A stretch of DNA of 64,000 nucleotides, taken from NCBI GenBank assembly GCA_028821605.1, contig JAPPFM010000041.1:186001-250000 (forward strand). Direction: 5' to 3'. The notes beneath the pieces are model-generated. The model was given only the letters and a program-made list of their open reading frames with translations. It had not been told where the DNA came from and did not search any database. This DNA is from Candidatus Poribacteria bacterium (GTDB taxonomy: Bacteria > Poribacteria > WGA-4E > WGA-3G). Positions 50,701 through 53,070 of the stretch are shown piece after piece. Each line of letters starts with the position of its first letter. Position 1 is the stretch's first letter. The position numbers and the translations under genes were made by a program.

Positions 50701-50729
50701 TTGACACCAACCGAAACATCCTATACAAT
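50701..50729 (+). promoter_or_regulatory. Promoter of the peroxiredoxin gene (predicted leaderless)
   Basis: TTGACA at 50701-50706 and TACAAT at 50724-50729 have a 17-base spacer. The predicted +1 coincides with the A of ATG 50736. Confidence 0.65.
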
Positions 50730-50735
50730 ATGCCC

Positions 50736-51233
50736 ATGCCACGAAAAAACAAGATACTCAACATCGGCGACACCGCGCCACCATTCACGCTGCCATCACA
50801 CCAACGCGAGGAAATATCGCTGGAAACGTATCGCGAAGCGCAAAATATCATCTTAACCTTCTTTCGAGGGACATGGTGACCAAACAGTCGCCGCCAGTTG
50901 TCGGCAGTGCAAGAAAACGTCAAAGCATACACAGAACACACAGCGACACCACTCGCCATCGCGGGACAGTGGCCCCGTGAACTCCGAGGCTACGCCGACA
51001 AAAACGGCATTACATTCCCTTTGCTGGTGGACAAAACCCGAAACGTCATCAAAAGTTATGGGGTCTACCACTGGCTGAGTTTAGAGGCTTATAACATTGC
51101 GCGTCCCGCAACATTCATCATTGACAAAACTGGGATTATCAGATATATGTATATCGGTACACATCAATTCGATCTCGTCCAACAGACAGAAGTCCTCGAA
51201 TTGCTCAAAGAGATCGCAGGACTACAAAAATGA
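50736..51233 (+). CDS. Candidate selenocysteine peroxiredoxin (AhpC/TSA-Redoxin family)
   Basis: A single frame of 166 codons is interrupted only by TGA at 50877-50879 (codon 48). The protein starts MPRKNKILNIGDTAPPFTLP. The segment before TGA is LTFFRGTW and after it PNSRRQLSAVQ. In AhpC/TSA-type peroxiredoxins this is FFRGTW-C-P-(N/Y)-C-R-x-Q-L, so TGA replaces the peroxidatic Cys; the usual second Cys is Ser. Downstream, GITFPLLVDKTRNVIKSYGV and ARPATFIIDKTGIIRYMYIG are fully conserved and the frame is open to TGA 51231-51233. This pattern fits selenocysteine insertion and is hard to explain as decay. A hairpin follows at 50890-50905. A chance TGY-to-TGA mutation is the alternative. Selenoprotein machinery is not in the window. 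Confidence 0.75.
50890..50905 (+). promoter_or_regulatory. Candidate bacterial SECIS hairpin
   Basis: Ten bases after the TGA, GCCGCC (50890-50895) pairs with GTCGGC (50900-50905) in a stem with one mismatch and an AGTT loop. Bacterial SECIS elements are hairpins just 3' of the UGA with a G among the first bases of the apical loop, as here. Spacing is close to that of E. coli fdhF. Identification is by eye only. Confidence 0.5.
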
Positions 51234-51296: not shown

Positions 51297-52397
51297 ATGG
51301 ACGAAACACATATAACCTTCATGCAACGCGCGCTGGATTTAGCACGGCAGGCAAAGGGACGCACGAGTCCCAATCCGCTCGTTGGGGCGGTCATTGTAAA
51401 AGATGGAAAGGTTATCGGTGAAGGGTATCACAAGAAAGCAGGAACGCCGCACGCAGAAGTCCATGCATTGAACGCCGCAGGCGAAAACGCCAAAGGTGCA
51501 ACGCTTTACACAAACCTTGAGCCGTGTTGTCATTGGGGACGGACACCCCCCTGCACAGAGGCACTGATTCGCGCAGGTATCGCGCACGTCTATGTCGCAG
51601 AAGTTGATCCGAATCCGAGTGTCGCAGGCAAAGGTGTCCAACAACTTCAAAATGCGGGTATCAACGTCCATGTAGGTGTCTGTGAACAAGAAGCATCAGA
51701 CTTGAACGAGGTGCATCGGAAATACATTCAGACGGGCAAGCCGTTTGTGATCCTCAAAACCGCGATGAGTCTCGATGGAAAAATCGCCACCGCCTCTGGC
51801 GAATCGCAATGGATTACATCGGAGGCATCGCGACAGCGCGGACACGAGGTTCGGGACGCGGTAGATGCGATTCTTGTCGGTAGAGGCACAGTCGAACGTG
51901 ACAATCCATCACTAACGACACGACTTCACGATAGAAAAGGACAGGACGCGACCCGGATTGTGTTAGATTCACACGGGAGAATTTGCAGGGATGCACGCAT
52001 TTTTAATGCCGAAAGCGAGGCAGGCGTTATCATAGCAGTAACGGCAGAGGCACCCCGTGAAAACGTTAACGCTCTCGAAAAGGCAGGTGCGGAAGTTATC
52101 ACTGTGCCAGCAGCACACAGCAAAGTCTGTTTCAAGCGTTTGATGGAAATATTAGGGAAACGTGAGATAACAAGCGTACTGATAGAAGGCGGTGGTGAGA
52201 TCAACGCATCGGCGATCGCTGCAGGTGTTGTGGACAAGGTTATGTGCTTCGTTGCGCCCAAACTCATCGGTGGGCAGAATGCGCCTGGACCGATCGGTGG
52301 TGTAGGTATCCGCAGTTTAGCTGACGCAGTAAACCTACAGCGAATCAACGTCACACCGATACCTGAGCACGACCTTTTAATTGAGGGATATCTATAA
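51297..52397 (+). CDS. ribD: Bifunctional riboflavin deaminase-reductase RibD
   Basis: A 366-residue enzyme that deaminates and then reduces the pyrimidine intermediate of riboflavin synthesis. The N-terminal zinc deaminase motifs are PHAEVHAL (His and Glu) near residue 51 and EPCCHWGRTPPC (two Cys) near residue 76. The C-terminal reductase begins near 145 (FVILKTAMSLDGKIA) and contains ILVGRGTVERDNPSLT and LIEGGGEINASAI. It is the first gene of the rib set, with ribE starting two bases after its stop. Confidence 0.96.
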   Translation: MDETHITFMQRALDLARQAKGRTSPNPLVGAVIVKDGKVIGEGYHKKAGTPHAEVHALNAAGENAKGATLYTNLEPCCHWGRTPPCTEALIRAGIAHVYVAEVDPNPSVAGKGVQQLQNAGINVHVGVCEQEASDLNEVHRKYIQTGKPFVILKTAMSLDGKIATASGESQWITSEASRQRGHEVRDAVDAILVGRGTVERDNPSLTTRLHDRKGQDATRIVLDSHGRICRDARIFNAESEAGVIIAVTAEAPRENVNALEKAGAEVITVPAAHSKVCFKRLMEILGKREITSVLIEGGGEINASAIAAGVVDKVMCFVAPKLIGGQNAPGPIGGVGIRSLADAVNLQRINVTPIPEHDLLIEGYL

Positions 52398-52398
52398 C

Positions 52399-53070
52399 AT
52401 GTTTACCGGAATCGTTGAGGAGCTCGGAAAGGTTAGGAGCATCCAAGTCAAATCTCAAGATGCGACGCTTGAAATTCAGGCGACCGATGTTCTTAGCGAT
52501 GCGAAAGTCGGGGACAGTATTTCTATTGATGGTGCCTGCCTCACGATCCGTTTTCTCACATCGGAAGTATTCACTGTTGATGTATCCGCTGAGACCTTGC
52601 GTCGGACGACATTGGGCGAACGGAAAGTTGGAGACTCCGTTAATTTAGAACGTTCACTTCGACTCAGCGATAGATTAGGTGGACATCTCGTACTCGGACA
52701 CGTCGATGAAGTAGCAACAATCTGTGGATGGAAAGACGAAGGCGACGCTTCTCTGATGCAGGTAACGATAAGCAGTGCCACCAAACCTTACATCGCATAT
52801 AAAGGATCGGTTACCGTTGACGGTGTCAGTTTAACTGTATCAAACCTACACGCAGATGCTTTTGAAGTTGCCTTGATTCCACATACGAAGAACGTGACAA
52901 CCTTAGGAACCAAACGCACCGGTGCGAAGGTTAACCTCGAAGTTGACATCGTCGCACGTTATATTGAAACGCTTCTCAGAAATACCGAGGAAAAGAGGGA
53001 CTGGACTGACCAAGCCTCTACCGAGCCTCTTAATTTGAACTTTTTATCGAAACACGGCTATATTAGTTAA
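52399..53070 (+). CDS. ribE: Riboflavin synthase alpha subunit
   Basis: A 223-residue enzyme that dismutates 6,7-dimethyl-8-ribityllumazine to riboflavin. Two tandem lumazine-binding domains start MFTGIVEELGKV and, at about residue 98, LVLGHVDEVATI. SIDGACLT and TVDGVSLTV are the paired ligand motifs. Start MFTGIVEE at 52399 is universal for the family; an in-frame ATG at 52381 lies inside ribD. A heptamer repeat begins immediately after the stop. Confidence 0.95.
   Translation: MFTGIVEELGKVRSIQVKSQDATLEIQATDVLSDAKVGDSISIDGACLTIRFLTSEVFTVDVSAETLRRTTLGERKVGDSVNLERSLRLSDRLGGHLVLGHVDEVATICGWKDEGDASLMQVTISSATKPYIAYKGSVTVDGVSLTVSNLHADAFEVALIPHTKNVTTLGTKRTGAKVNLEVDIVARYIETLLRNTEEKRDWTDQASTEPLNLNFLSKHGYIS

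Follow-up and report, generated by a model that had tools for sequence, protein, structure and literature searches.

In the uncultivated and often sponge-associated Poribacteria, an internal UGA codon in the gene of a small redox enzyme is almost certainly read as selenocysteine (Sec). The gene lies on the forward strand at positions 50736-51233 of the window, by which we mean the whole 64,000-nucleotide stretch of Candidatus Poribacteria DNA analysed here, and encodes an AhpC/TSA-fold protein of 165 residues, from an ATG start to a TGA stop at 51231-51233. As an earlier note on this DNA had proposed, the frame is open except for one TGA, codon 48 (50877-50879), embedded in the motif RGTW-U-PNS with a Ser at +3; standard-code gene finding splits the gene in two at this point. 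Given the conservation of the UGA, its exchange for Cys in one relative, and the complete selenocysteine machinery, we are very confident that codon 48 is a genuine Sec codon and infer that Sec is actually inserted there.

Conservation of the UGA codon

When 84,980 species genomes were scanned with patterns derived from the window protein alone, a design that would miss distant homologues outside Poribacteria, 47 relatives were recovered, every one from Poribacteria; the closest relatives of the window (genome G000, contig C41) in this collection are likewise all Candidatus Poribacteria. In this first set, codon 48 is TGA in 46 of the 47 relatives and TGT in one (L033). A search of the phylum recovered a close orthologue in 67 of 85 Poribacteria genomes, and the two sets, when pooled, comprise 67 distinct gene sequences that span three families of one order. 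The codon is TGA in 66 of these and TGT (Cys) in one, with no other in-frame stop and no frameshift at the codon in any of the 67. The comparison of Cys and Sec homologues called for in the earlier note thus returned UGA or Cys throughout, and its contention that a chance nonsense mutation at this site is improbable is amply supported. Its further claim, that the rest of the protein is conserved, holds as well: purifying selection is equal on both sides of the TGA, with a median dN/dS among orthologue pairs of 0.088 before and 0.076 after the codon (rough values, distant pairs being near synonymous saturation). Between the window and L009, dS is 0.49 and 0.43, and dN is 0.05 and 0.04, before and after the UGA, respectively, and 52 residues are invariant among the 66 full-length orthologues.

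The single Cys copy (L033, in genome G041) is the sister of a TGA copy from the same genus (L129, in G040), with support of 100/99, and the next branch outward (L130) also carries TGA. With the Cys copy thus placed inside a group of UGA copies, the branching order indicates that UGA is ancestral in the clade and that the Cys form is derived, that is, the product of a Sec-to-Cys change. The Cys genome retains selA, selB, selD, and tRNA-Sec. The same locus, the only Cys orthologue, also lacks both the promoter and the ribD neighbour described below, which suggests relocation of the gene along with the Sec-to-Cys change while all the Sec machinery remained in place. As a separate observation, three genomes of family f4 (G037-G039) possess selA but show no match to the gene at 1e-20, either because they lost it or because it arose later.

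The selenocysteine machinery

The earlier note made its proposal contingent on selA, selB, selC, and selD, and the machinery proved to be complete in the window's own genome: selA (600 bits), selB, selD (359 bits), and tRNA-Sec (78 bits, anticodon tca), the last of these located 3' of selB, all score above curated cut-offs, and the same four are found in 13 relatives. The selD gene itself is interrupted by a single in-frame TGA in each of the 14 genomes examined at the outset, including the window genome (L099, contig C30, 71300-72223), and in 7 more examined later, so that SelD is probably a selenoprotein in Poribacteria too. Across the phylum, selA was detected in 72 of the 85 species genomes searched. 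Eight metagenome-assembled genomes carry a UGA orthologue with no detectable selA; among these, selD with its TGA is present in seven, selB in four, and tRNA-Sec in four, a pattern that fits assembly gaps. With respect to gene order, selA adjoins selB and tRNA-Sec in the deeper genomes G008 (C21), G010 (C2), G011 (C10), and G012 (C78), reached via L052, L050, L051, and L053, respectively, and lies apart from them in the window genome (C46/C49).

The window genome also encodes a candidate for a second Sec protein (L098, contig C10, 318953-319336), in which an AhpC/TSA domain with the motif RGGWUPFCRG (UxxC) follows carboxypeptidase-regulatory-like domains. A paralogue with one TGA is present in most Poribacteria genomes.

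The putative SECIS element

Synonymous variability in this gene is lowest immediately 3' of the UGA, which is where a SECIS has to lie in bacteria; the minimum falls in the nine-codon windows that start at codons 47-51. The constraint on synonymous codon choice is extreme in codons 51-55 (50886-50900): Ser51 is AGY in 67 of 67 sequences, compared with 169/476 for Ser elsewhere in the gene; Arg52 and Arg53 are CGY in 132 of 134 cases (263/675 elsewhere); Gln54 is always CAG (67/67, against 188/362); and Leu55 is always TTG or TTA (67/67, against 231/919). In one of several possible registers, the probable SECIS hairpin occupies positions 50890-50905, with a stem formed by +14..+19 and +24..+29, counted from the U of the UGA, and a loop, AGUU (+20..+23), that is invariant in all 67 sequences. 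Under a loose description of the bacterial SECIS, the best hairpin has a mean energy of -8.2 kcal/mol compared with -3.4 for synonymous shuffles, but the window's own hairpin surpasses its shuffles only modestly, 10% of them reaching it. Each of the six pairs of the stem is kept in 42-60 of the 67 rows, with roughly one row in three failing to form pairs 16-27 and 18-25; several overlapping registers reach equal scores, none of them fits every orthologue, and RNAalifold over all rows retains nearly no structure (-0.03). Hence, the part of the earlier note that placed a hairpin at SECIS distance stands insofar as the strongest synonymous constraint is found there, but the stem contains a mismatch in the window and competes with other registers. 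By contrast, the L098 paralogue has a textbook hairpin, GCAACUC-GGU-GAGUUGC.

Active site, fold, and likely function

The window protein matches Pfam AhpC-TSA (PF00578) with an E-value of 3.9e-29 (101.5 bits, cut-off 26) and Redoxin with 1.3e-14; no NCBIfam model reaches its cut-off for this protein, the best sub-threshold match being ResA (1e-15). The predicted fold (AlphaFold AF2 model, pLDDT 88, pTM 0.86) is closest to Bcp4 and AhpE among PDB structures, with TM scores of 0.84-0.88 on the query length. In an alignment that is gap-free around the motif, Sec48 coincides with the Thr/Ser of AhpE FTGIC and PrxQ FSPVC, and it is Ser51 (50886-50888), invariant in all orthologues, that coincides with the peroxidatic Cys of these proteins, as well as with the second Cys of WCxxC. 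Thus, the claim that the UGA replaces the catalytic Cys is right in the WCxxC sense of TlpA and thioredoxin but not for the classical peroxidatic position, and the Ser noted in place of the usual second Cys is indeed there. The active-site helix begins at residue 49 in the model, which would put Sec48 at its N-cap, the site of the nucleophilic first Cys of TlpA and thioredoxin and of the Sec of glutathione peroxidase (GPX). Apart from S51, the residues R44, T46, Q78, W79, N120, and R123 are invariant in the 66 full-length rows. No second Cys is conserved among these rows: C156 is found in only 28 of the 66 and is missing from the window protein. GTWUPNS looks like a thioredoxin/TlpA-type site whose two Cys are replaced by Sec and Ser, respectively (UxxS).

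The scenario that we propose begins with SelB, Sec-tRNA-Sec (anticodon UCA), and the in-gene SECIS hairpin 3' of the UGA, which together would direct Sec to codon 48. The product would be a single-Sec oxidoreductase of the thioredoxin fold and of the AhpC/TSA (peroxiredoxin-like) kind, whose selenolate most likely acts as the nucleophile towards a hydroperoxide and is thereby converted into a selenenic acid; the latter would then be reduced by an external thiol (thioredoxin, for instance, or a thiol of low molecular weight), in the manner of 1-Cys peroxiredoxins and GPX. The reductant is probably external because there is no conserved second Cys and Ser51 occupies the +3 position. On balance, we lean somewhat towards this peroxidase step and, with it, towards a 1-Sec peroxidase-like enzyme that would depend on an external reductant.

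The principal alternative concerns the function of the protein rather than the identity of residue 48. It is possible, although we give it clearly less weight, that the protein is a Sec-dependent thiol-disulfide oxidoreductase, a monoselenol enzyme comparable to TlpA/ResA or to a monothiol glutaredoxin. The resemblance of GTWU-P-x-S to the WCxxC site of ResA-type proteins, the sub-threshold ResA match, and the absence of the peroxiredoxin T/SxxC all point in that direction, whereas peroxidases (PrxQ/Bcp and AhpE) come out on top in both the structure comparison and the PDB sequence search, the peroxiredoxin-type Arg (R123) is invariant, and the resolving Cys that disulfide reductases normally need is missing.

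Far more improbable are the readings that dispense with Sec altogether. If the TGA were a true stop, the locus would be a pseudogene or would encode a 47-residue peptide, possibly with a restart at TTG 50898 that would yield only the C-terminal part, and standard-code gene finding does yield precisely such a split; however, the stop is shared by 66 of 67 orthologues, is never TAA or TAG, gives way to Cys in the last one, and is flanked by equally strong purifying selection, and the Sec machinery is complete, all of which leaves this reading with a minimal probability. Much the same applies to the notion that the UGA is read as another residue, for example Trp or whatever a reassigned code would give, or that it is passed by readthrough of a general kind. 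Any of these readings would leave the frame open, but TGA terminates 5 of the window's 32 frames that exceed 250 codons, no other convincing TGA-interrupted frame turned up when the window was scanned for them, and the tRNA-Trp that was found has the anticodon CCA. Moreover, the only replacement seen in nature is TGT, which encodes the Cys that homologues use, and tRNA-Sec, SelA, SelB, and SelD are all present, so that we consider this possibility equally slight. On the evidence of conservation, selection, and frame ends, we reject the pseudogene, readthrough, and alternative code and retain the selenocysteine reading.

Relationship to known selenoproteins

Peroxiredoxin-like selenoproteins are already a known kind, and the question is where among them the poribacterial protein belongs. 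Glutathione peroxidase likewise combines a single Sec with a hydroxyl residue at +3, and its Sec is located where the active-site helix starts; the GPX motif is UxxT (PMC1088965). We rejected assignment to GPX, given that no GPX family match was found in Pfam or NCBIfam for the window protein. With the peroxiredoxin-like thiol:disulfide oxidoreductase selenoproteins, the protein shares the PF00578 fold, Sec in the first position of the thioredoxin-like motif, and a bacterial SECIS region a short way downstream; these are listed in Table 1 of PMC13188914 only as UxxC and UxxU, whereas the poribacterial protein has an invariant Ser in second position and lacks any other conserved Cys. Sec-peroxiredoxin PrxU (TxxU; NF040737, PF00578) has in common with it the peroxiredoxin fold and Sec for a catalytic Cys, but the Sec of PrxU is peroxidatic, and here Sec comes three residues earlier, with Ser51 at the position filled by Cys or Sec in the classical PxxxTxxC/TxxU motif; since NF040737 scores 28 bits and its cut-off is 270, filing under PrxU was rejected as well. 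The closest solved structures, by sequence and by fold, are Cys peroxiredoxins, namely, AhpE of M. tuberculosis and archaeal Bcp/PrxQ, which have Cys instead of Sec and whose peroxidatic Cys aligns with Ser51.

A UxxS selenoprotein of the AhpC/TSA superfamily (cd02970/pfam13911) reportedly originates from a study of Olavius algarvensis symbionts. It has the motif and the superfamily in common with the protein described here. The published compilation of 119 prokaryotic selenoprotein families or subfamilies, which treats a differing Sec motif as a separate subfamily, lists PF00578 with TxxU, UxxC, and UxxU, and UxxS under cd02970 (PMC13188914); the UxxS protein was assigned to pfam13911 (PMC9312934). 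The window protein, unlike that family, matches PF00578 strongly and PF13911 not at all at E<=1, and its relatives reach only 0.003-0.16, below the cut-off, so that this assignment was also rejected. Judging from motif and profile matches, PF00578 with UxxS would accordingly be a new subfamily by published criteria, set apart from the cd02970 UxxS family by the comparison with PF13911.

Promoter and gene neighbourhood

The near-consensus promoter claimed in the earlier note is real and is conserved in most family-level relatives; it is of the sigma-70 type, TTGACA-N17-TACAAT (50701-50729, forward strand), with TTGACA at 50701-50706 and TACAAT at 50724-50729, and is absent in L033 and in the deeper L050-L054. 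Immediately after the -10 box comes a non-conserved ATG at 50730, and the box ends six bases ahead of the conserved ATG at 50736; given this position, the mRNA is predicted to be leaderless, with transcription starting at about the ATG. Downstream, on the same strand and after a gap of 63 bases, lies ribD (51297-52397, identified by Pfam), followed by ribE. In most of the 47 loci, ribD is found within 2 kb downstream, and in most, ribE also follows directly; co-transcription of the selenoprotein gene with these flavin synthesis genes (51297-53070 for ribD with ribE), as a putative operon, is possible.

Implications

A search for Poribacteria selenoproteins found no published example among the papers covered. 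The full picture that we tentatively draw, and that is less likely than not to hold in all its parts, is that of a phylum-restricted 1-Sec PF00578 enzyme of the UxxS type without a conserved Cys, a GPX-like convergence from a TlpA/peroxiredoxin-like scaffold, with Sec kept through most of Poribacteria, a leaderless mRNA, and a non-canonical, register-flexible SECIS.

Poribacteria are, very probably, selenocysteine users, with a conserved selenoenzyme that appears as two separate pieces in standard annotation. SelA and SelB are recurrent and co-occur in most sponge symbiont bins from several phyla (PMC5649159), and the gene at 50736-51233 is a candidate reason for their retention. The natural Sec-to-Cys change, in a genome where the machinery is intact, offers a ready comparison for what Sec buys.
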